Shown piece by piece: positions 4,304-63,347 of a DNA stretch of 64,000 nucleotides. The DNA lies in contig CADBZW010000009.1 of NCBI GenBank assembly GCA_902799345.1, positions 120,563 through 184,562 of the forward strand. Direction: 5' to 3'. The DNA comes from an uncultured Bacteroidia bacterium (lineage in GTDB: Bacteria > Bacteroidota > Bacteroidia > Bacteroidales > F082). The stretch's first letter is position 1. Each line of letters starts with the position of its first letter. A program made the position numbers and the translations under genes. The notes beneath the pieces were generated by a model that made no database searches, had not been told where the DNA came from, and saw nothing but the letters and a program-made list of their open reading frames with translations.

Positions 4304-4375
4304 AGAAATTGACCGTTTATGTCATTCCTGCAAAGGCAAGTGCGATGGATGGGAATCTATAAACGGTCAATTTCT
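4304..4375. terminator. 17-bp inverted repeat between convergent lutB and RT genes
   Basis: The arms 4304-4320 and 4359-4375 are perfectly complementary over 17 bp with a 38-nt loop. The right arm contains the last codons of the reverse transcriptase gene, and its TAG stop begins at the loop edge. The hairpin can terminate transcription from both sides. Arms this long, with one inside a coding end, are unusual for a simple terminator. Confidence 0.55.
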
Positions 4376-5568
4376 TTAAACCTATAATACTCATTGACCA
4401 GGCTTCGATATCCTAACGCCTTCAGTTGGTCGTAATCAACCTTGTAATTGGCTTTATTGTGTTTTCCCGTGCTTAAAAACCTGATGTTCTGTTGCAAGTA
4501 ATGGTCGATTTCCTTCAGTCCGTCCGTTTGGGTGATGACGGGGAAAAACCATCGTGACCAGGTCAAAGTCTCCGGGTCGTCGCTCTCGAAGAACTTGCGG
4601 TTGAAATAGTTGATGAGCGCTTTCATCGCCTTTTCGGGTTCGATGTGCTTCTTGTGGCTCCAGCGCAACAAAGACCTGGCTTGGCGCGAAATCTTGCCTT
4701 TCATCTTCTTTTTCGTTGCCTCCGAGATGTCGACGTCGTGGCCGTGACACTTGAACCCCAAGAACTCGTAAGCCTCATCGGGCGAATAGATCTTCTCCTT
4801 GTCGGGATTGACTTCCAGATGAGCCTGTGCCAAAAAGTTGCACATCTGATTTTTGTATTCTTCAAGGGTCTCATAATCAGTGGCGAACATGATGATGTCG
4901 TCGGAATATCGGGCATAGACGACACCTTTATTATAATAATAGCGGTCGACTTCCTTCAAGTAGACATCGGCGAGGAAAGGTGCGGTGGGTGTGCCAGCCA
5001 TCACGCCGTGATGTTCCTCAATGACTTGTTCGTTGCTGATGGCGAGGTTGGTGGTCAGCAGCTTTTCGAAGAATAAGTACAAAGGCGGGTCGTTGGCCAG
5101 CATCTCTTTCAGCATGGGCAGCAGGAGGCCGATGTCGATGGAGTTGAAATAGTCGTGGATGTCGAGTTTGTAGGCCCACATCTTCTGTCCTTGGATGGCC
5201 TTGTTGATTCTGTGAACGGCATCATGGGCTTTCAGTCCTCGGCGGAAGGCGTAGCAGTTGGGTGCAAACTGGTCGTCGTATTTATAAAGCAGAAAGGCGA
5301 TGACTTTGAGGATGAGCATCTCTTCGGGGGCAAAGCTATAGACGACGCGTTTCTTACCCGATCCCATCTTGTTCACCAGCTTTTTCGTTGGGATGCCGAG
5401 TCCTTCGCCTTGAGCGATTTTGGTGGCCAAGGGCAGATAGTCTTCCCGTTCCACGAAGGCATCGGCCTCATCGAACTCATGCCAGCTGAAGCGGCCTTTC
5501 ATGAGGCGATAGGCAAGAAACTCTTCCCAGGTCTCCTGACGGGTCAGTTGAGAGATGATACTTTCCAT
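4357..5568 (-). CDS. stand-alone reverse transcriptase, unclassified group
   Basis: A 403-residue RNA-directed DNA polymerase without maturase, HNH or protease domains. Visible RT motifs: KKRVVYSF at 72-79, the CYAFRRGLKAHDA fingers element (105-117), KLDIHDYFNSID with catalytic Asp136, GVMAGTPTAPFLADVYL (188-204) and the active site YSDD (221-224), followed by the LGF element at 270-272. Residues 300-403 are a basic thumb-like domain ending in LGYRSLVNEYYRFKE. Motif 4 reads GTPTAP, neither the PQG-SP of group II introns nor the xGxxxSQ of diversity-generating elements. ATG 5568 is preferred to an upstream GTG. It follows a small gene and a hairpin-rich spacer; antiphage or retroelement function is inference. 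Confidence 0.85.
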   Translation of the reverse strand: MESIISQLTRQETWEEFLAYRLMKGRFSWHEFDEADAFVEREDYLPLATKIAQGEGLGIPTKKLVNKMGSGKKRVVYSFAPEEMLILKVIAFLLYKYDDQFAPNCYAFRRGLKAHDAVHRINKAIQGQKMWAYKLDIHDYFNSIDIGLLLPMLKEMLANDPPLYLFFEKLLTTNLAISNEQVIEEHHGVMAGTPTAPFLADVYLKEVDRYYYNKGVVYARYSDDIIMFATDYETLEEYKNQMCNFLAQAHLEVNPDKEKIYSPDEAYEFLGFKCHGHDVDISEATKKKMKGKISRQARSLLRWSHKKHIEPEKAMKALINYFNRKFFESDDPETLTWSRWFFPVITQTDGLKEIDHYLQQNIRFLSTGKHNKANYKVDYDQLKALGYRSLVNEYYRFKEIDRL

Positions 5569-5598
5569 GATAAAAAAGAAAAAGGGGAAAGATTTTGA

Positions 5599-5706
5599 AT
5601 CGGTAAAATTACCGATCACGAGAGGGTACCTTGTCGGGTTGCCTGCAAAACCGAGAAATGAACGACAAGGCTGCCTCCTTCGGCAGGCGAGGCGCGGTGA
5701 TGCCGC
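5599..5706 (-). ncRNA. hairpin-rich spacer upstream of the RT, candidate structured RNA
   Basis: The spacer between the 173-residue gene and the RT holds four stems in about 110 nt: ATCGGTAA/TTACCGAT (5599-5616), an 8-bp perfect stem CCTTGTCG/CGACAAGG (5629-5636 with 5663-5670), CTGCC/GGCAG (5671-5686) and GCGG/CCGC (5694-5706). Many bacterial RTs use an RNA encoded next to them as template. The structure is seen; the role as an RT partner is inference, and it could be a palindromic repeat. Confidence 0.35.
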
Positions 5707-5726: not shown

Positions 5727-6248
5727 TTAGTTCAAGAACTTACGGATGCGCCCGATGACGTAGTCGCGTTCGTTGGGCATCTGCGTGTAGAAGTTGATGT
5801 AAGGGATGCCGGCTTTCTTGGCGTACATCCTCGCTATCAGGTACTTCACGTTGCTGTCGTGGCTATGGCCTTTGCCGAGCATTACCACGCCTTTGGCGCT
5901 GCCCATTTGTTCGAGCACGAAGGTATAGGGCTGTCCCCATTCGGCTTTGTAGGCCTGACGCGGGCGCGTCTTGTAGAGTTGGAACTCATCGTTGGCGAAG
6001 CCTGCGATGTCGGTCACCGGCACGTTTTCCCTGACTGTGTATTGCGGGAATGCCGTGGCCAGAATCTCGCGGAAGTAGGCCAGCCATTCTGAGTCGGTCC
6101 GCACGATTTCTTCTTCGTAGTGCGGTGTGGCAGGCTGTGGTGTAGGTTTAGGCTGTGCCGAGGGTTGTGATGCAGGTTTGGCTGCTGCGGTTTCGATGTT
6201 TTCTTTCACGACATCGACCAGTTTCGAGAATAGTTTTCCGAAGTCCAT
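5727..6248 (-). CDS. hypothetical protein paired with the reverse transcriptase
   Basis: A 173-residue protein I do not recognise. Residues 1-22 are a probable amphipathic helix, 23-43 a Pro/Ala/Gln-rich linker, and 48-173 a compact alpha/beta domain. The last 60 residues (VVMLGKGHSHDSNVKYLI then AKKAGIPYINFYTQMPNERDYVIGRI) resemble the tail of small nuclease-like or DUF2726-like domains, where a KKAGIPYI strand follows a charged helix. No complete PD-(D/E)xK signature can be read, so nuclease activity is only a guess. It is first in a unit with the RT (spacing 158 nt) and has its own TATCTTTG promoter. There is no signal peptide. Confidence 0.7.
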   Translation of the reverse strand: MDFGKLFSKLVDVVKENIETAAAKPASQPSAQPKPTPQPATPHYEEEIVRTDSEWLAYFREILATAFPQYTVRENVPVTDIAGFANDEFQLYKTRPRQAYKAEWGQPYTFVLEQMGSAKGVVMLGKGHSHDSNVKYLIARMYAKKAGIPYINFYTQMPNERDYVIGRIRKFLN

Positions 6249-55322: not shown

Positions 55323-55360
55323 TGTAAAGATTCTTTACACCGCTGTAAAGAATCTTTACA
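55323..55360 (+). promoter_or_regulatory. tandem upstream activator sites of the ABC-ATPase gene
   Basis: Two perfect 17-bp palindromes, TGTAAAGATTCTTTACA (55323-55339) and TGTAAAGAATCTTTACA (55344-55360), with centres 21 bp apart. The second centre is 64 bp upstream of the -24 GG. Binding by a sigma-54 enhancer-binding protein is inferred. Confidence 0.75.
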
Positions 55361-55414
55361 CTTTTTACAAATGCGAATTTTTGTAGTTTATTGATTGTTA
55401 GGTGTTTATAATTT

Positions 55415-55430
55415 TGGCACGATAGATGCT
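55415..55430 (+). promoter_or_regulatory. sigma-54 promoter of the ABC-ATPase gene
   Basis: TGGCACGATAGATGCT: GG at 55416-55417 and GC at 55428-55429 with the required 10-bp spacing. Expected start about 55441, giving a leader near 110 nt. Confidence 0.7.
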
Positions 55431-55549
55431 ATGGCTGTTTTGATTGAATGAATAATGATTTTCTTGAAATTGATACTCCCGAAAGGAAAGCTCAAACCAG
55501 AAACAACATTTCAACAAATAAACAGTTAAACAATTAAACACTTAGAACT

Positions 55550-56218
55550 ATGATCAAAGTAGAAAATCTAAGGAAGGTCTTCAGAACGGAAGAGATTGAA
55601 ACCCTCGCATTGGACGGCGTTTCGTTCGAAATCAACGACGGTGAGTTCGTCGCCATCATGGGGCCTTCGGGATGCGGCAAGTCCACCTTGCTCAACATCC
55701 TCGGCCTTTTGGACAACCCCACCGAGGGCCGTTACGAACTCCTCGGCCATCAGGTCGGCGACCTCAAGGAAAAGGACCGCACCCAGTTCCGCAAGGGCAA
55801 CATTGGCTTCGTGTTTCAAAGTTTCAACCTCATTGATGAGCTGAATGTGTATGAGAACATCGAATTGCCGTTGCGCTACATGAACGTCCCTGCTGCCGAG
55901 CGTAAGGAGCGTGTGGAGGCCATCATGGCCCGCATGGACATCAGACATCGCAAAGACCACTTCCCGCAGCAGCTATCGGGCGGTCAGCAGCAAAGGGTGG
56001 CCATCGCTCGTGCCGTGGTCGCCAACCCCAAGCTCATCCTCGCCGACGAACCGACAGGTAACCTCGACTCGAAGAACGGTCGCGAGGTGATGGACCTGCT
56101 CACCGACCTCCACAAGGAAGGCACCACCATCGTCATGGTGACCCACTCGCAGCGCGACGCCGGCTACGCCGACCGCATCATCAACAAGATTGTGGAAGAG
56201 GTGTTGTCGCAGTTGTAA
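55550..56218 (+). CDS. ABC transporter ATP-binding protein (MacB/LolD type)
   Basis: A 222-residue ABC ATPase. Walker A GPSGCGKSTLLN (38-49), Q-loop FVFQSFNLIDEL, signature LSGGQQQRVAIARA (about 141-154), Walker B LILADEPTGNLD and H-loop VTHSQ are all present. It is of the class that powers FtsX/MacB-type permeases and lipoprotein release, not bulk import. Its most likely partner is the FtsX permease at 60930-63347, which shares the same control design. It is monocistronic, read from a sigma-54 promoter and followed by an inverted repeat. Confidence 0.95.
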   Translation: MIKVENLRKVFRTEEIETLALDGVSFEINDGEFVAIMGPSGCGKSTLLNILGLLDNPTEGRYELLGHQVGDLKEKDRTQFRKGNIGFVFQSFNLIDELNVYENIELPLRYMNVPAAERKERVEAIMARMDIRHRKDHFPQQLSGGQQQRVAIARAVVANPKLILADEPTGNLDSKNGREVMDLLTDLHKEGTTIVMVTHSQRDAGYADRIINKIVEEVLSQL

Positions 56219-56240
56219 CTTTCGTTCTGTTGTGGAAAGG

Positions 56241-56356
56241 GATTGCCTTCGGCAAGAAATCTTTCAAAATCGAAATTAAAATCTTTCAAAATCTTGGAAA
56301 TCATTTTTTGAATGATTTTGAAAACAGATTTTGTTAGATTTCTTGCGAAGCAATTC
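56241..56356. repeat. long inverted repeat between convergent genes
   Basis: Arms GATTGCCTTCGGCAAGAAATC (from 56241) and its inverted copy (to 56356) enclose an inner AAATCATT/AATGATTT palindrome. One arm also occurs at 45516-45546. It could terminate both flanking genes. Confidence 0.6.
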
Positions 56357-56372
56357 GAACAAATCATGGTTT

Positions 56373-57278
56373 TTAGATTATCCGTCCCGCTTCCTCAAGC
56401 AAAAACGGAATGACACCCACATACATGATGCCGTCTTCATCGGTCCACGGCTTCGCGTTTCCGTCGAGAATGACAATCTTGCGGAAAAAATCGCCCGAGT
56501 TCTTCAACGAGAAAGTCTCTTGATTCTTTTTCACTTCCGTATCCACATTTAGCGCGGATTGGATATACACCTTCTCGCGACCTGTATTGACGACGAAGTC
56601 GATTTCATACTGTGACTGTTGCTTTTTGCCGTCCTTTACGAGGGTCATTTCCACCACACCCACATCCACGCTGTAGCCTCTGCGGATGAGCTCGACGAAG
56701 ATCACGTTCTCCATCAGATGCGATTTCTCCTGCTGTCGAAAATTCAACTTGGCGTTCCGCAGTCCGATGTCCATCGAATAGTATTTCTGTGTGTTCTCGA
56801 AATACCGTTTCCCCTTCACATCGTATCGCTGTGCACCCAAAAACAGGTAGGCTTCCTCCAAATAATCCAGATAGTTCTTTATGGTATGGTCCGAGGTGTT
56901 GCGCTTCATCAGCGAGCCTGCTGCATTGGCCAGATTGTGCGGATTGGTTAGTGAACCAACAGCCGAAGACAATGCATCAATCAAGGCTTCAAGCACCTCG
57001 TCATCTTTCAGCTTGTATCGCTCTACAATATCCTTGATGTAAACCCTCTTATGGAGTCCTTTCAGGTATTTGCGCTTCTCCGTCTCGTTCTTTTCCAGCA
57101 CTGCTAATGGCATACCGCCGTATGTAAGATATTCCTCCATTGCATCCACCTTCTCAAGTCCGGAAACGGGATAGAACTCCTTGAACGACAGCGGATAGAC
57201 CTTTATCTCCGATCCGCGGTCTCGGAAATTGGTGACAATGTCTTTCGAAAGCATCTTGGAGTTCGAGCCAGTGACGTA
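56373..57278 (-). pseudogene. truncated DUF4143-family ATPase gene
   Basis: The reading frame gives about 300 residues of an ATP-binding protein with a DUF4143 C-terminal domain. It begins at TGSNSKMLSKDI, the sensor end of the AAA core, and runs through EFYPVSGL, FENTQKYYSMDIGLRNA and QYEIDFVV. An in-frame TGA lies directly before this segment (57279-57281), and the Walker A and B parts are gone. A TACCTTTG promoter box survives at 57392-57399 on the same strand. So an internal deletion removed the P-loop half. An intact N-terminal relative starts at 63675. The DUF4143 ATPases are of unknown role and spread widely. Confidence 0.75.
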
Positions 57279-57471
57279 TCATTGTTTGCTTATTAACTCA
57301 CTGATATACTAATCTCTTTGTATGACCATAGCATTTCTTTTTATGCATTTTACTGCAAAAATAGTCGCACTATTCGACCTTTTTTGCAGTACAAAGGTAC
57401 GACTTTTCCATAAACCTCCAAACAATCAGAAAAAAAGATGAACAATTTCGATCCAAAAGTGGATTAGCCAC
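57279..57471. other. intergenic segment with hairpin and orphan promoter
   Basis: This gap contains an imperfect 16-bp inverted repeat (57352-57390, ACTGCAAAAA to TTTTTTGCAGT) and the minus-strand -7 box TACCTTTG (57392-57399) of the lost DUF4143 gene. Nothing else is recognisable before the activator sites. Confidence 0.5.
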
Positions 57472-57509
57472 TGTAAAGTTTCTTTACACCACTGTAAAGA
57501 AACTTTACA
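57472..57509 (+). promoter_or_regulatory. tandem upstream activator sites of the outer-membrane operon
   Basis: Palindromes TGTAAAGTTTCTTTACA (57472-57488) and TGTAAAGAAACTTTACA (57493-57509), centres 21 bp apart, the second 64 bp before the -24 GG. Spacing is identical to the 55.3 kb set. Confidence 0.75.
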
Positions 57510-57563
57510 CTTTGTCTTTAATCTTTGAATTTTAAATCTTTGAATTTTAAATACTTACATTTT

Positions 57564-57579
57564 TGGCACGGCGATTGCC
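57564..57579 (+). promoter_or_regulatory. sigma-54 promoter of the outer-membrane operon
   Basis: TGGCACGGCGATTGCC: GG at 57565-57566 and GC at 57577-57578, 10-bp spacing, close to the TGGCAC-N5-TTGC consensus. Expected start near 57590, leader about 27 nt. Confidence 0.78.
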
Positions 57580-57616
57580 ATGCTAAAAGGCAGTAAAATT
57601 ATAAACCTGTAAAGCT

Positions 57617-59914
57617 ATGGCAAAGAAATCGTTTTTGACCGCACTGCTGGTTTTTATGGCGGTGCTGTGTGCTGAGGCGCAGAACTTGAATGGCCATTTG
57701 GCCGATGAAAACGGCGAGCCTGTGGCTTTCGCCAACATGACGTTGAAACAGGCCGTTAACGACAGCATAGTTGCTGGTCTGACCTCTGACGAGAACGGCA
57801 ACTTCTCCGTCGATGTGAAAGATGGAAGGTACATTCTCACTGCCTCCGCCATCGGCTACGAGCGGCTGACCGTCCGTTGTGGGGCGACTGCCCTCGGAAC
57901 CTTACTGATGCCCAAAACCACTGAACAATTGGACGAAGTAGTAGTTGAGGCTTCGAGGGTCACCGAAGAGGCGGGACGTTTCGTAGTGCTGCCCGACCCC
58001 AAGGAGGCGGAAGTCTCGGGTCGTGGTCTGACCTTGCTCGACATGCAACAGTTACCTGGCTTGGAGGTGGATGTGGCCATGCAAAACATCACCATTGACG
58101 GTGGCACACCCATCCTGCAAATCAACGGGAAGGAAGTGCCGCTCAACCGCTTCATCAATGTCAGGCCTGAACAAATCCTGCGTATCGAGTACAGCAATGA
58201 ACCTGGAATCCGCTATTTGGACCGTAACGCGTCGGGTGTCATCAATCTTGTGCTAAAGGAATCGGACGACGGCGGGAACGTGATGGCGAGGATTCAGTCG
58301 GCTTTCACGACGGGCTTCGTGGATGGCTATCTCATGGCCGCCCACCACAAGGGCAAGTCGGAGTTTTCATTGCAGTACAACTTGAGCCACCGCAACTACA
58401 AGAACGTGCCTTACGAGATGACAGACAGTTATATCGCGGAAGATCGCACGGTGGAGCGTTATCAAGAAATGAATTTCCCGTTCAATTACATCACGCACAA
58501 CATCACAGGAGAATACACCTACCAGCCTAACGACAGCACCATGTTCGTGGCCACCTTGCGCGACTACATCGACAACAACCATTGGTACGGCACGGGCACC
58601 ATCAACGAAACGGAGAACGGCATAACCACGCAGATGGACATGAACAAACAGACTGACAGGAAAGGCAACTCGCCGACGCTGGACTTGTTCTTCACGCACA
58701 AGATGCGCAACAAACAGAAAATCGAACTCAACGCAGTTGGGCTGTATTCGCACAGCGAGTATTTCAACAACTTGATTTACAGGGATTCGGAGAGCGAATG
58801 GCAATATCCTACCAAGGTGATTAACAAGGGTTACCTGATAGGCGGCGAGGCCGTTTACAGCAAGCAGTTCAAGAAGGCGGAAGCCCGCATCGGACTGCAA
58901 TACCAGCACAACTTCGCGAGCAACGACTACGTGATTTACGAGACGCAGACCGAGATGACCAAGGACAACACCTATCTTTATGCCGGCATTGAAGGCAATT
59001 TTAGCGACAATGTGATGTATTCTTTAGGAACGGGCGCCAAGTTGTTCACCGTGACCGACGGCATCGACACCAAGCGATACCTCCGCAACTTGAGCACGGC
59101 GGGCCTGTTTTGGCGCATCAACCAGCGTTGGTCGGTGACGGTCAACACGCAGTTTGTCCCTTACCTGCCTTCGTTGAGCGACATGTCGCCCGTGTTGCAG
59201 CGTGTGGACGATGTGGAGGCCATCTGTGGCAATGAGTCGTTGCGGCCTTATAACACCTTGTTCGGTGCACTGCGGTTGCGCTACAATAATAAGGGATGGT
59301 TTGCCAGTATGATTCCAAGTTATTACAGGAACTTTTCCCCCACTGTCCGCTTGTATCATTACGATCCTGACCTTGATCTTTTCGTCGGCACACGGCAGAA
59401 CACCGACTATTACCAGCGTTTTCAGTTGAAAGCCGAGGTGGGCGTGAAGCAACTGTTTGGCCGATTGAATATTACGCTGAACGCCAAACTGAAGAAGGAG
59501 GAAGCCAAAGGCGAGGAATTCTATCACGACAACCTCAATTTCAGCAGCGGCATCAAGGCGCAGTTTGTCTGGAAGCAGTTGGTGGTCGGCTGCAATTTCG
59601 ACTTCACGCCCGAATGGTCTTTGTTCGGCGAGGATTTGTCGGGAGGCGAGATGTCGCAAAGCATCTATGCCGAATACAACTGGAAGAGCCTGAATGCGAG
59701 CGTAGTATGGCATTGTCCATTCAACAAGAAGGGCTATATGTACCAGACCAGCAACCTCTCGGCGGTGCATCCCTACAGCCACACCAACTGGACCAGCGAC
59801 AACGGCAACATGGTTGTGTTGGGTCTCACATGGAAGTTCAACTACGGAAAGGCGTTCAACAAAGGCCAGAAGACGCTTTGGAACGGTGGATATGATGACG
59901 GTATGGTGAAGTGA
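57617..59914 (+). CDS. outer-membrane beta-barrel protein (OMP_b-brl_3 / TonB-receptor-like)
   Basis: A 765-residue outer-membrane protein. Signal peptide 1-21 (LCAEAQ), carboxypeptidase-regulatory-like domain about 23-100 (GHLADENGEPVAFANMTLK), a short plug (TEQLDEVVVEASRVTEEAG; DMQQLPGLEVDVAMQNITIDGG) and a barrel ending in GLTWKFNYGKAF. Family members with this layout resemble TonB receptors but often lack full plug motifs. Substrate unknown. It is first in the operon with the GIN protein, the 47-residue ORF and the FtsX permease, so it may act in an envelope-stress or export response. Confidence 0.9.
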   Translation: MAKKSFLTALLVFMAVLCAEAQNLNGHLADENGEPVAFANMTLKQAVNDSIVAGLTSDENGNFSVDVKDGRYILTASAIGYERLTVRCGATALGTLLMPKTTEQLDEVVVEASRVTEEAGRFVVLPDPKEAEVSGRGLTLLDMQQLPGLEVDVAMQNITIDGGTPILQINGKEVPLNRFINVRPEQILRIEYSNEPGIRYLDRNASGVINLVLKESDDGGNVMARIQSAFTTGFVDGYLMAAHHKGKSEFSLQYNLSHRNYKNVPYEMTDSYIAEDRTVERYQEMNFPFNYITHNITGEYTYQPNDSTMFVATLRDYIDNNHWYGTGTINETENGITTQMDMNKQTDRKGNSPTLDLFFTHKMRNKQKIELNAVGLYSHSEYFNNLIYRDSESEWQYPTKVINKGYLIGGEAVYSKQFKKAEARIGLQYQHNFASNDYVIYETQTEMTKDNTYLYAGIEGNFSDNVMYSLGTGAKLFTVTDGIDTKRYLRNLSTAGLFWRINQRWSVTVNTQFVPYLPSLSDMSPVLQRVDDVEAICGNESLRPYNTLFGALRLRYNNKGWFASMIPSYYRNFSPTVRLYHYDPDLDLFVGTRQNTDYYQRFQLKAEVGVKQLFGRLNITLNAKLKKEEAKGEEFYHDNLNFSSGIKAQFVWKQLVVGCNFDFTPEWSLFGEDLSGGEMSQSIYAEYNWKSLNASVVWHCPFNKKGYMYQTSNLSAVHPYSHTNWTSDNGNMVVLGLTWKFNYGKAFNKGQKTLWNGGYDDGMVK

Positions 59915-59936: not shown

Positions 59937-60803
59937 ATGAAGAATTTGATAATTTATACCTTGCTTGCAACCCTGTTAATGATGGACGGGTGGAACGTGC
60001 AAGCGCAAAACAACAATGTATGGAAAGTGGACACCGTAACTGACGGGAAAGGTAACAAAACCATTACCGTGTACATGCAAAAAAACGTTGTGGAAGGCAA
60101 CGGCAACATCGTCACGCGTGACATCGATGTGGCGGCGTTCAAGGAAATCAGCATGATATTGCCCGCAACGGTAAACTACAAAGTGGCGGACAACTACTCC
60201 TGCCGTGTGACCCTCGATGAGAACCTTTTCGAGTGGGTCGACATCTATCAGAAAGGCGATTGCTTGAAGGTCGAGATGGTCAAGACCTTTCAGCAATCCG
60301 ACGTGAAGCCGACGAAGTTCCTCATCGAGCTCACCGCCCCGACCTTGGAGGAAATCAGTATAATGGGTAGCGGTGACTTTAATTTCGTTACGCCGTATGA
60401 AGCCAAAGAGTTGAAAATCAAATTGACGGGTTCGGGCGATGTGGTTTTCGAGAAAACAGCAAACATCCATGATTTTGATGTGGATGTTGCAGGCTCGGGA
60501 AATGTGTTGAGTAAAGAGTTTCTTGCTGACTACATGGATATAAGCATCGCCGGATCGGGGAAGATGGTTTGCGAACACCTCCAAGCCAATCACCTGCGTT
60601 CAAGTGTCGCTGGTTCCGGCGATGTCATTATCAAGGATGGTAAGGTGAAAAAAGCGAACCTTACTGTGGCGGGTTCGGGCTCCATTGAGGCACGCTGCCA
60701 GATGGAATCGATGGACTACAGCGTTGCTGGCACGGGTAGTATCTCATACCCAGGCGATGTCAAGGCGGTAGGCACCGTAGTAGGCGGCAAGATCAAGTTG
60801 TGA
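59937..60803 (+). CDS. GIN-domain (DUF2807) exported protein
   Basis: A 288-residue protein with a signal peptide (1-22, WNVQAQ). Residues 60-285 are the head GIN domain: a right-handed beta solenoid with repeated GSGD/GSGN/AGSG turns (IMGSGDFNFV, LTGSGDVVFE, VAGSGNVLS, IAGSGKMVC, VAGSGSIEA). The domain is common in Bacteroidetes envelope proteins, and its function is unknown. It follows the barrel gene by 22 nt and its stop overlaps the start of the next small ORF (TGATG). Confidence 0.92.
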   Translation: MKNLIIYTLLATLLMMDGWNVQAQNNNVWKVDTVTDGKGNKTITVYMQKNVVEGNGNIVTRDIDVAAFKEISMILPATVNYKVADNYSCRVTLDENLFEWVDIYQKGDCLKVEMVKTFQQSDVKPTKFLIELTAPTLEEISIMGSGDFNFVTPYEAKELKIKLTGSGDVVFEKTANIHDFDVDVAGSGNVLSKEFLADYMDISIAGSGKMVCEHLQANHLRSSVAGSGDVIIKDGKVKKANLTVAGSGSIEARCQMESMDYSVAGTGSISYPGDVKAVGTVVGGKIKL

Positions 60804-60946
60804 TGAAAAACCGTAATAAAACGAGAATCAACCAAACGCTTTTCGAAAAGTTGGTAAAGTTCTTCGGACTTGAAAAAGCAGAGAAAATATACAAAAGACT
60901 TGATCGTTTAAATAATAACTCAACGACTTATGGCTCGAATCTATAA
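60803..60946 (+). CDS. small basic ORF (47 residues) between GIN and FtsX genes
   Basis: The ATG at 60803 overlaps the GIN stop (TGATG), and its TAA at 60944 lies 17 nt inside the permease coding region. The product is strongly basic: MKNRNKTRINQTLFEKLVKF, then FGLEKAEKIYKRLDRLNNN, ending at TYGSNL, with a likely single amphipathic helix. The tight coupling on both sides argues that it is translated, but its only evidence is position and open frame. No function is known. Confidence 0.5.
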   Translation: MKNRNKTRINQTLFEKLVKFFGLEKAEKIYKRLDRLNNNSTTYGSNL

Positions 60947-63347
60947 AAAAGGCAAGACCTCCCTCGTGTCTTCCATCCTGAACATCTTGGGCTTGACGGC
61001 AGCCTTTGCCGCGCTCTACATCATCCTCGTGCAGGTGCACCACGACCTCACCTACAACAAGGCGCTTAAGGACAGCGACAGGATTTATTGCATGATGGTC
61101 GGCGACCGATTTGCCGACTACGGCGCCTCATGCTGGATTAACCGACCGATTTCTGAGGCGGTCATTGCGGCCTCGCCCGACGTGGAAGCGGGCGGCTGCG
61201 GCTATGTGGGCAAAAACTGCTCGACCGCCACCGTTTTGCTTGACGACGACCGTCAAATGAGTGTGAAAATCGGTGCCTTCAGCAATGGCGGCAAGGATGT
61301 TTTCGGCTTCGAACTCGTTGCGGGCAACTGGGACGACTGGATTAACGGCATCACCTACGCCGTTTCGGAATCGACGGCGCGACGGCTTGGTGTGGAAGTG
61401 GGCGACGTGGCCAAACTTCGGACGAACAGTTGGCAGGGACTGCAACTTGAAGACGCCGTCATCGTCGCCATTTACAAGGACATGCCCGCCAACAGCGACG
61501 GCACCACTTTCGATATGTTTTACAATATCGGCAATCGGGGTTTGGACAATTGGAGCGAATGGGGCTTCAACTATTTCGTGAAACTTCGCGAAGGCGCCGA
61601 CCCGAAAGCGTTTGAAGAGGCCGCGAAACCTGCCATGAAGGACGCCTTTATGCGGCTGAACGGCATTGACCCGACATCGCTCAGCGAGGAGGAAAAGGCT
61701 CTGTGTGAGGAGTCGGTGGGTGGCACCAATCTCCAACTGATAAAACTCACCGATATGTATTTTGCCAAAAACATCAATGCGTCAGGAAAGACGGGCAACC
61801 GTACTACGACGATGACCTTGCTCGCCATTGCTATTGCGGTCATTGTCATCGCGTTCATCAACTACATCAACTTCTTCTTCGCTATGGTGCCCATGCGATT
61901 AAAGAGTGTCAACACACGCAAGATATTAGGCAGCAGTCGTTTCCAATTGGTGATGTCGTTTGTCGGCGAGTCGGTGACGATGGTGGTCATTGCCTTGGCG
62001 TTGGCCGTGGCCGTGGTTACGCTGTTCAGGCAGTCCACCTTGGCCTCGCTGATTGAAACGCCGTTGGACTTCGGCCAAAACCAGGGCCTTGTTGCCTTGA
62101 CCGTCGGCCTTGGGTTGTTCATTTCGGTGGCAGCCAGCATTTATCCCGCTTTGTTCGCCACCTCGTTCAATCCTGCCTTTGCCTTGAAAGGTACGCTCGG
62201 CACCACGCAAAAAGGCAAGGCTTTCCGCATTGGTTTGATTGGATTGCAGTTTACGGTGTCTATCGTGCTGATTATCTGCGCTATATTCATCCACGAGCAA
62301 CGCCAGTTCATGCTCAACCGCGACATGGGCTTCGACCACGAGCAACTGCTCACGCTGCAGACCACGGCTAAAATCGCCTACCTCGACCGTGAAACCTGTG
62401 AAAACCGTCTCAAATCCGATGCCGCCATTAAGGATGTGGCTTGGGGCGATGGTGGGTTTGTCAAAGACGAGCGCATGGGCTGGGGCAGAAAATACAAGGA
62501 TGCCAATGTGAATTGGCAGTGCTATCCAGTTTCTTGGAACTTCTTGGATTTCATGGGAATAGAAATCGTGGAAGGCCGCAGTTTCACCCCCGCCGACGAG
62601 CAATCGGAAAACGGTGTCTATATCTTGAACGAGACCGCCCAAAAAATGTATGACATCACTGTAGGCGACCAAATCCAAGGCCACACCGACGGCTTGGCCG
62701 AGGTTGCCGGCATCTGCAAGGACTTCAACTACTCGGCCTTGCGCAACGAGATTGGGCCGTTTGCCTTGTATGTCTTCGGCAAAAAACCGTGGCGGCCTTG
62801 TATGCAATTGTTTGTCCGCACCGAGGCTGGCGTGGACATCCCCGAAGTGATGAAGCGCATCCAAAACACCCTGAACGAACTTGACCCGAGCATTGCCGCC
62901 GCCGATTTCGATGTGCAACTCTTCGACGAAACGCTTCAAAACCAATACAAAAAGGAGCAAAACCTCTCGAAGTTGATTACTTTATTCACGATTTTGGCCA
63001 TCGTCATCTCGCTGATGGGCGTGTTCGGCTTGGTGATGTTCGAGACAGAGCACCGTCGCAAGGAGATTGGCATCCGTCGTGTGCATGGTGCCACCGTGGG
63101 GCAGATTTTGGCCATGTTCAACTCGCGCTTTGTAAAAGTTGTGTTGGTGTGCTTCATCATTGCCGTACCCGTGAGCATCGTCATCATGCGGCGTTATTTG
63201 GAAGGATTTGCCTATCAGGTGCCGCTGCATGTTTGGGTGTTTGCCCTTGCGCTGTTGGCTGTCTTGGGCGTAACTATAGCGGTGGTCACCTTGCGCAGTC
63301 TGAGGGCGGCTACGATGAATCCGGTGAAATCCTTACGAAATGAATAG
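60930..63347 (+). CDS. FtsX/MacB-type ABC transporter permease
   Basis: An 805-residue permease with duplicated FtsX architecture. Helices lie near 18-38, 290-312, 340-362, 385-408, 430-450, about 690-712, 735-758 and 770-795. Periplasmic MacB-PCD-like domains occupy about 50-280 and 460-680 (VAWGDGGFVKDERMGWGRKY region). The helix phrases INYINFFFAMVPMRLKSVNTRKILGSS and FETEHRRKEIGIRRVHGATVGQILAMFN are typical coupling-helix regions. It lies in the sigma-54 operon and probably uses the ATPase at 55550. Such permeases act in mechanotransmission or export, not bulk import. Confidence 0.92.
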   Translation: MARIYKKGKTSLVSSILNILGLTAAFAALYIILVQVHHDLTYNKALKDSDRIYCMMVGDRFADYGASCWINRPISEAVIAASPDVEAGGCGYVGKNCSTATVLLDDDRQMSVKIGAFSNGGKDVFGFELVAGNWDDWINGITYAVSESTARRLGVEVGDVAKLRTNSWQGLQLEDAVIVAIYKDMPANSDGTTFDMFYNIGNRGLDNWSEWGFNYFVKLREGADPKAFEEAAKPAMKDAFMRLNGIDPTSLSEEEKALCEESVGGTNLQLIKLTDMYFAKNINASGKTGNRTTTMTLLAIAIAVIVIAFINYINFFFAMVPMRLKSVNTRKILGSSRFQLVMSFVGESVTMVVIALALAVAVVTLFRQSTLASLIETPLDFGQNQGLVALTVGLGLFISVAASIYPALFATSFNPAFALKGTLGTTQKGKAFRIGLIGLQFTVSIVLIICAIFIHEQRQFMLNRDMGFDHEQLLTLQTTAKIAYLDRETCENRLKSDAAIKDVAWGDGGFVKDERMGWGRKYKDANVNWQCYPVSWNFLDFMGIEIVEGRSFTPADEQSENGVYILNETAQKMYDITVGDQIQGHTDGLAEVAGICKDFNYSALRNEIGPFALYVFGKKPWRPCMQLFVRTEAGVDIPEVMKRIQNTLNELDPSIAAADFDVQLFDETLQNQYKKEQNLSKLITLFTILAIVISLMGVFGLVMFETEHRRKEIGIRRVHGATVGQILAMFNSRFVKVVLVCFIIAVPVSIVIMRRYLEGFAYQVPLHVWVFALALLAVLGVTIAVVTLRSLRAATMNPVKSLRNE

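Follow-up and report, generated by a model that had tools for sequence, protein, structure and literature searches.

The window analyzed here, a 64,000-nucleotide stretch from the genome of an uncultured Bacteroidales bacterium, includes two transporter gene units, each preceded by a pair of short palindromes and a sigma-54 promoter:

55323..55360, + strand: module 1, twin 17-bp palindromes (7-3-7), proposed binding sites (UAS) of an enhancer-binding protein (EBP)
55384..55396, + strand: IHF-consensus-like element, 8/9 positions of YAANNNNTTGATW, starting 32 bp before GG
55414..55429, + strand: sigma-54 (-24/-12) promoter TTGGCACG-N4-ATGC
55550..56218, + strand: ABC transporter ATPase, the first gene after module 1
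56373..57254, - strand: DUF4143-type gene, truncated, separating the two units
57472..57509, + strand: module 2, twin 17-bp palindromes
57533..57545, + strand: IHF-consensus-like element, 8/9 positions, starting 32 bp before GG
57563..57578, + strand: sigma-54 promoter TTGGCACG-N4-TTGC, exact consensus
57617..59914, + strand: CarboxypepD_reg protein, presumed outer-membrane beta-barrel (Pfam: CarboxypepD domain only)
59937..60803, + strand: head GIN domain (DUF2807) protein
60930..63347, + strand: MacB_PCD/FtsX permease

All four palindromes (55323-55339, 55344-55360, 57472-57488, and 57493-57509) are exact, and in both window pairs the second palindrome equals the reverse complement of the first, down to and including the centre. 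The centres lie 21 bp apart, and the GG of each promoter (55416 and 57565) follows the second centre (55352 and 57501, respectively) at 64 bp. The promoters match TGGCAC-N5-TTGC (GG-N10-GC) at 11 of 12 and 12 of 12 positions, respectively, so that the pairs, spacings, and promoters given in the preliminary description made from the sequence are borne out; the reverse complementarity within each pair is an addition to that description. The genome encodes RpoN (PF04552 at C14, E 5e-52). Searched genome-wide, the sigma-54 motif alone yielded 28 matches versus 21 in the reversed control, with no clear enrichment, and was accordingly dropped as evidence by itself; the weight therefore rests on the palindrome pair and its fixed distance from the promoter.

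This geometry was analyzed in 23 loci (3 from the window's own genome and 20 from relatives) containing 49 pairs, with promoters called at a score of at least 9/12 within 200 bp. Such a promoter follows 47 of the pairs, 62-65 bp past the second palindrome centre (62 bp in 9 pairs, 63 in 23, 64 in 12, and 65 in 3), compared with 22 of 20,000 random positions that have one at 62-65 bp. The distance of exactly 64 bp reported initially thus holds for both window modules but widens to 62-65 bp across the genus loci. The gap between the two palindromes is 2 bp (5 pairs), 4 bp (22), or 5 bp (20), and the distance from the first centre to GG is 83 bp (2), 84 bp (24), or 85 bp (21): the variation of the gap is compensated, and the first, distal palindrome is the one better locked to the promoter. 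Relative to the inferred transcript start, the palindromes are located at about -88 and -109. Many of the 47 promoters are related by descent, with 23 left at <75% identity over 120 bp; across the 23 non-redundant promoters, aligned at GG, the GG, CA, and TG dinucleotides are invariant, and the spacer diverges while the palindromes persist. The promoter search (at least 9/12, 200 bp) was negative for two pairs, L017:4209 and L066:7298. The former (L017:4209-4247) is an orphan: the flanks of this twin palindrome are 93-96% identical to two complete modules over 75 bp and then pass into unrelated sequence; judged by this alignment, it is a module severed from its promoter.

The two modules of the preliminary description are real but belong to a larger set. 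In the window, 6 sites match the palindrome with at most three mismatches (2.24 expected), 4 of them exactly. With at most one mismatch, the whole genome contains 14 sites, and all 14 occur in pairs; of the resulting 7 pairs, 6 have a promoter. Two pairs lie at the end of contig C9 (in the window), three on C46, and two on C32, and the genome-wide search found no site with at most one mismatch off these three contigs, in place of the many unrelated copies that would have spoken against a dedicated regulator. At most two mismatches gave 21 sites genome-wide versus 9 for the pattern read backward. A repeated or mobile (REP-like) element copied along with duplicated permease genes is a scarcely credible origin of the pairs. 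Duplication of cluster segments is indeed seen, with 96% identity between C46:4207-4281 and 5934-6008, and one copy lacks its promoter, but the palindromes were kept while the spacers diverged to the extent given above, copies with at most one mismatch are confined to the three cluster contigs, and other lineages hold different half-sites at the same position.

The three pair-bearing contigs hold parts of an FtsX/MacB-type ABC transporter cluster. The gene order on C32 is response regulator, kinase, pair, TolC, permease, pair, permease, HlyD, and C46 carries further permeases along with DUF4143/AAA and Fic genes. The ends of C46 and C32 overlap by 53 bp, so these contigs probably adjoin; no end overlap of this kind was found between C9 and C46. 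A permease with MacB_PCD and FtsX domains, the ATPase, HlyD, and TolC are all present in one cluster. In canonical MacB, the ATPase is fused to the permease; here, no ATPase domain was detected in the six own permeases scanned, and the ATPase gene is separate. An open reading frame of at least 100 aa begins within 600 bp of 46 of the 47 promoters, and the Pfam domains found in these 46 first frames are MacB_PCD (19), FtsX (17), OEP (9), DUF2807 (GIN; 8), ABC_tran (4), CarboxypepD (3), and HlyD_3 (1). Provided that MacB_PCD, OEP, GIN, ABC_tran, CarboxypepD, and HlyD do not overlap, 44 of the 46 first genes represent transporter-cluster families. The beta-barrel gene, initially assigned with the other driven genes to one transporter, is probably co-regulated with the cluster, but its membership in the transporter is putative.

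The gene between the two window units, initially described as decayed, indeed encodes the C-terminal part of a DUF4143 protein without the AAA_14 domain of its full-length relative. In four other species (L058, L067, L069, and L072), copies of this region with 97-99% DNA identity contain an additional 363 bp at about position 57279, toward the missing N-terminal side. The identity is higher than that of the neighbouring GIN gene (95-96%) and of the ATPase (87-90%, in the two species with it in the stretch compared); judging from these values, a recent spread of the region within the genus is possible. DUF4143/AAA_14 and Fic-domain genes occur between permease units at L017:2813-5906, L017:11569-12333, and window 56373-57254. 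Elsewhere in the window (4357-5619, - strand), a reverse-transcriptase-like open reading frame containing YARYSDDI was recognized by eye.

Five of the genome's 7 pairs begin 5-39 bp past the stop codon of the upstream gene, and the two window pairs could form perfect 17-bp RNA hairpins (-20.6 and -20.2 kcal/mol). Furthermore, in 25 of the 47 pairs, the triplets at the two centres are reverse complements of each other, versus 17.2 in shuffles (P 0.0014). These features would fit 38-bp inverted repeats whose main role is to end the upstream gene, as transcription terminators or RNA hairpins, with the promoter nearby for other reasons. Nevertheless, the hairpin is not retained throughout (-10.9 kcal/mol, z -1.9, at L016:4064-4118), 22 of the 47 pairs lack complementary centres, the stem is AT-rich, each half of a repeat is palindromic in its own right, and the promoter distance is fixed within 2-3 bp although the spacer diverges. 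We consider this explanation very unlikely and, given the inconstant hairpin and the pairs with non-complementary centres, rejected the hairpin as the main function; the pairs may also serve as terminators in a side role.

C32 encodes an NtrC-type response regulator (L016:1901-3210) followed by its partner histidine kinase (L016:3207-4064), the latter directly before a pair. The Response_reg, Sigma54_activat, and HTH_8 domains of the regulator are all detectable, on two pieces of its gene; the orthologue P0001 is a single open reading frame of 446 aa. At L016:2683 (C32), the gene is 31 nt short of the G057 orthologue and out of frame, and no intact AAA+ domain of this regulator is encoded in this assembly of the window's genome. 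The kinase gene behind the broken regulator stays open, and relatives carry intact regulator copies. With 31 nt missing out of frame, this break may be a real loss that left the switch dead in this strain, or else an assembly error. The kinase lacks a periplasmic domain and has a single hydrophobic stretch at its N terminus, so that sensing within the membrane or via the transporter, by analogy with BceS/BceAB, is plausible. The contact loop is GAFTDA in P0001, and among 163 EBPs, it is GAFTDA in 131, GSFTDA in 22, and GAFTGA in 3.

The presence of the strict pair was compared with that of the regulator across the family. The pair was found in 61 of the 99 genomes of the window's genus, which account for all 61 positives among the 173 family genomes; the other 15 genera had none (0/74), and the reversed control pattern had no match in the 173 genomes. 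We divided the genus orthologues into class A, with at least 64% identity to P0001 (range 64-100%), and class B, with 52-58%; the class A count includes the partial genes of G113 and G130 and the own broken gene, and G076, which has a regulator fragment (80% identity), was counted as having none. By these definitions, 51 of 62 class A genomes, 0 of 16 class B genomes, and 10 of 21 genomes where neither was detected carry the strict pair. In at least 3 of the 11 class A exceptions (G050, G058, and G063), pairs are present but their half-sites are variant, and of the 10 genomes with pairs and no regulator match, 3 contain A-type fragments and 7 do not. The recognition helix, where read, is SRPTLY in class A and S/TRQTLY in class B (8 loci for the latter). 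Pairs of the TGTAAAC half-site variant number 4 in G050 (C4) and 6 in G063 (C78, C82, and C109), which seems to reflect, as far as sequences tell, a half-site drift common to a whole regulon.

Linkage was assessed in 10 genomes with both pair and regulator, chosen as relatively contiguous: 20 of 25 pairs are on the contig of the regulator orthologue, all within 27.4 kb, and the other 5 lie on different contigs. In G095, a single contig holds the regulator and, 21 kb from it, the GIN unit with its pair, which supports one cluster. Binding of the palindromes by another regulator, either a different EBP of the genome or a repressor unrelated to sigma-54, is also very unlikely. The cluster's EBP is out of frame in the assembly, the genome has two other full EBP genes, and the 7 genomes mentioned above have pairs and no detected A-type regulator or fragment. 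However, the recognition helices of the two other EBPs are different (DRKTLYNK and SERTLYRK), both the presence of the pair and the type of half-site follow the class of the cluster's EBP, and the position of the pair is typical of an EBP enhancer. The single dedicated activator proposed in the preliminary description fits the regulator and kinase found in the cluster, RpoN, the class tracking, and the linked pairs; the broken regulator gene, the pairs in genomes with no regulator match, and the two pairs with no promoter match are exceptions that count against it.

Aligned at GG, the 23 promoters share a conserved block in the stretch from enhancer to promoter, a third element overlooked in the preliminary description of a twin-palindrome control module. 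The block agrees with the IHF consensus of E. coli, YAANNNNTTGATW, as given in the portion of PMC5963220 available to us, and starts 32 bp upstream of GG. With a threshold of at least 7/9 positions, 24 of the 28 non-redundant promoters of the genus have the element at one offset (mean 0.72 and maximum 5 in 2000 shuffles), a count behind which stand spacers of common descent. Among 15 distant promoters, taken with no palindrome filter and including doubtful loci such as L237, L253, and L262, there were 7 matches (shuffle mean 0.32, maximum 3). In an anagram control, 7 of 2000 motifs reached 24, all 7 being close variants of the IHF consensus, and the consensus in the opposite orientation was found at another offset in 17 of 28 promoters. 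The window's genome encodes two full proteins of the HU/IHF family (PF00216) and a weak partial match, the Pfam match being one that does not separate HU from IHF. In Bacteroides, an IHF-like host factor is known for CTnDOT, although it did not appear among the literature matches listed for it. An IHF-like bending is probably part of the regulon.

Related arrangements were detected in other lineages. Four of the 8 class B loci (L111, L112, L114, and L116) contain TGTCCAA-type pairs 62-64 bp from GG, and L113 contains a TGTCTAA-type pair. Paired TGT-N11-ACA was found in 32 of 100 EBP loci (L105-L204, which include both genus classes and in which L110 and L149 are one stretch) and not once in 1.58 Mb of reversed control. 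In this survey and in that of the 163 loci below, promoters were sought in set distance ranges; the search was later repeated without that limit, up to 200 bp. In the unlimited repeat (100 + 60 loci, 37 pairs), the best promoter scored at least 9 in 20 cases, 17 of them at 62-66 bp and 3 at 72-74 bp, about one helical turn apart; at a score of at least 8, 29 of 33 were at 62-68 or 72-75 bp and 4 elsewhere. In an independent phylum sample, pairs turned up in 2 of 60 EBP loci, which belong to the 4 whose helix reads S/TRQTLYNK; the other 58 had none, and most of these have LYRR-type helices, whose sites were not found. This low frequency rules out generality across the phylum and points to a subfamily feature rather than a phylum rule.

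Among the 163 EBP loci, a pair with a promoter (at least 7/12, at 60-67 or 70-76 bp) accompanies 12 of 40 regulators with P at the variable helix residue, 18 of 40 with Q, 3 of 33 with T, 1 of 11 with S, and 0 of 39 others; for 28 of the 40 P-type loci, there was no pair in the sequence stretch examined. The fourth base of the half-site is A with P, mostly C or A with Q, and T with T. The P label changes 4 times on the EBP tree, and of the 4 independent contrasts, 3 are concordant in most pairings and none is opposed (sign test p 0.25), too small a number to decide the residue-to-base question. A strict rule is opposed by the Q-type loci L113, L119, L120, L123, and L161, which mostly have A. 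It is possible, if on balance doubtful, that a Bacteroidota EBP subfamily runs export-pump clusters by a rigid three-part enhancer (twin TGT-N11-ACA, IHF-like bend, and sigma-54 promoter), with the distal palindrome locked to the promoter and one helix residue (SR-P/Q/T-TLY) helping to set the half-site (TGTAA, TGTC, and TGTTC). If so, a regulon would be readable from the protein, given the role of the helix residue, and a sequence-specific IHF-like bender in Bacteroidota would be implied.

For the cluster itself, the observed sites, distances, co-occurrence, linkage, and gene families make it very likely, in our assessment, that it constitutes a dedicated sigma-54/EBP regulon, in which the cluster's NtrC-type regulator would act on the twin sites with IHF-like bending and sigma-54 activation. 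Each twin palindrome would be the UAS for two dimers of the regulator, which would pair with the kinase at L016:3207-4064 and, in the phosphorylated form, assemble on the palindrome pair. Once an IHF/HU-like protein had bent the spacer at its conserved element, the sigma-54 polymerase complex bound to GG-N10-GC would be opened by the AAA+ ring. The six promoters of the cluster would be switched on together, co-activating the shared ATPase, several MacB-type permeases, TolC, HlyD, and the barrel/GIN proteins. The binding, phosphorylation, bending, co-expression, and signal in this scheme are what we infer from sequence.

Uncultured gut and rumen bacteria thus appear to switch on an export-pump cluster via one rigidly spaced, repeated module. 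To our knowledge, few binding sites of Bacteroidota sigma-54 activators have been described; here, the regulator, site, distance rule, likely bending site, and targets can be named together. The locked geometry bears on how EBP rings reach the polymerase across a short bent loop, and the lack of an outward-facing sensor in the kinase suggests a possible role of the pumps in sensing.

The NtrC sites at glnA are the tandem 17-bp palindromic enhancers of NtrC-type two-component sigma-54 regulons. The module described here shares with them a regulator with receiver, AAA+, and Fis-type HTH domains and tandem 7-3-7 palindromes but differs in the half-site (TGTAAAG), in the targets (FtsX/MacB transporter genes), in the GAFTDA loop that most of the EBPs read have in place of GAFTGA, and in the distal site locked 83-85 bp from GG. 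In BceRS-BceAB, a transporter works with an intramembrane-sensing kinase and an OmpR-type regulator. Here, likewise, an FtsX-type permease cluster adjoins a kinase without a periplasmic sensor domain, with a putative coupling between the two, but the output is a sigma-54 EBP. With respect to the third element, the parts available of two reports describe close counterparts: an IHF consensus lies between enhancer and promoter of Vibrio fluvialis tssD2, at a 16-bp interval from the sigma-54 site (PMC5963220), compared with 17 bp before TTGG here, and Desulfovibrio orp2 has the EBP at -88, IHF at -43, and sigma-54 at -11 (PMC3897727), a layout close to that of the module. In contrast to both, the host here belongs to Bacteroidales and has two full HU/IHF-family proteins, a dedicated IHF among them being putative. 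Predicted sigma-54 promoters before FtsX-like permeases (COG0577), enriched in Bacteroidia among other classes, have been reported (PMC12316311), with no enhancer motif, regulator pairing, or IHF-like element named for COG0577 genes in the part of that report available to us. Among the literature matches listed, which cover few subscription papers, none describes a regulator or enhancer for sigma-54-driven FtsX permease genes. Compared with these known systems, the type of switch is classical, and the regulon and its exact geometry look undescribed.
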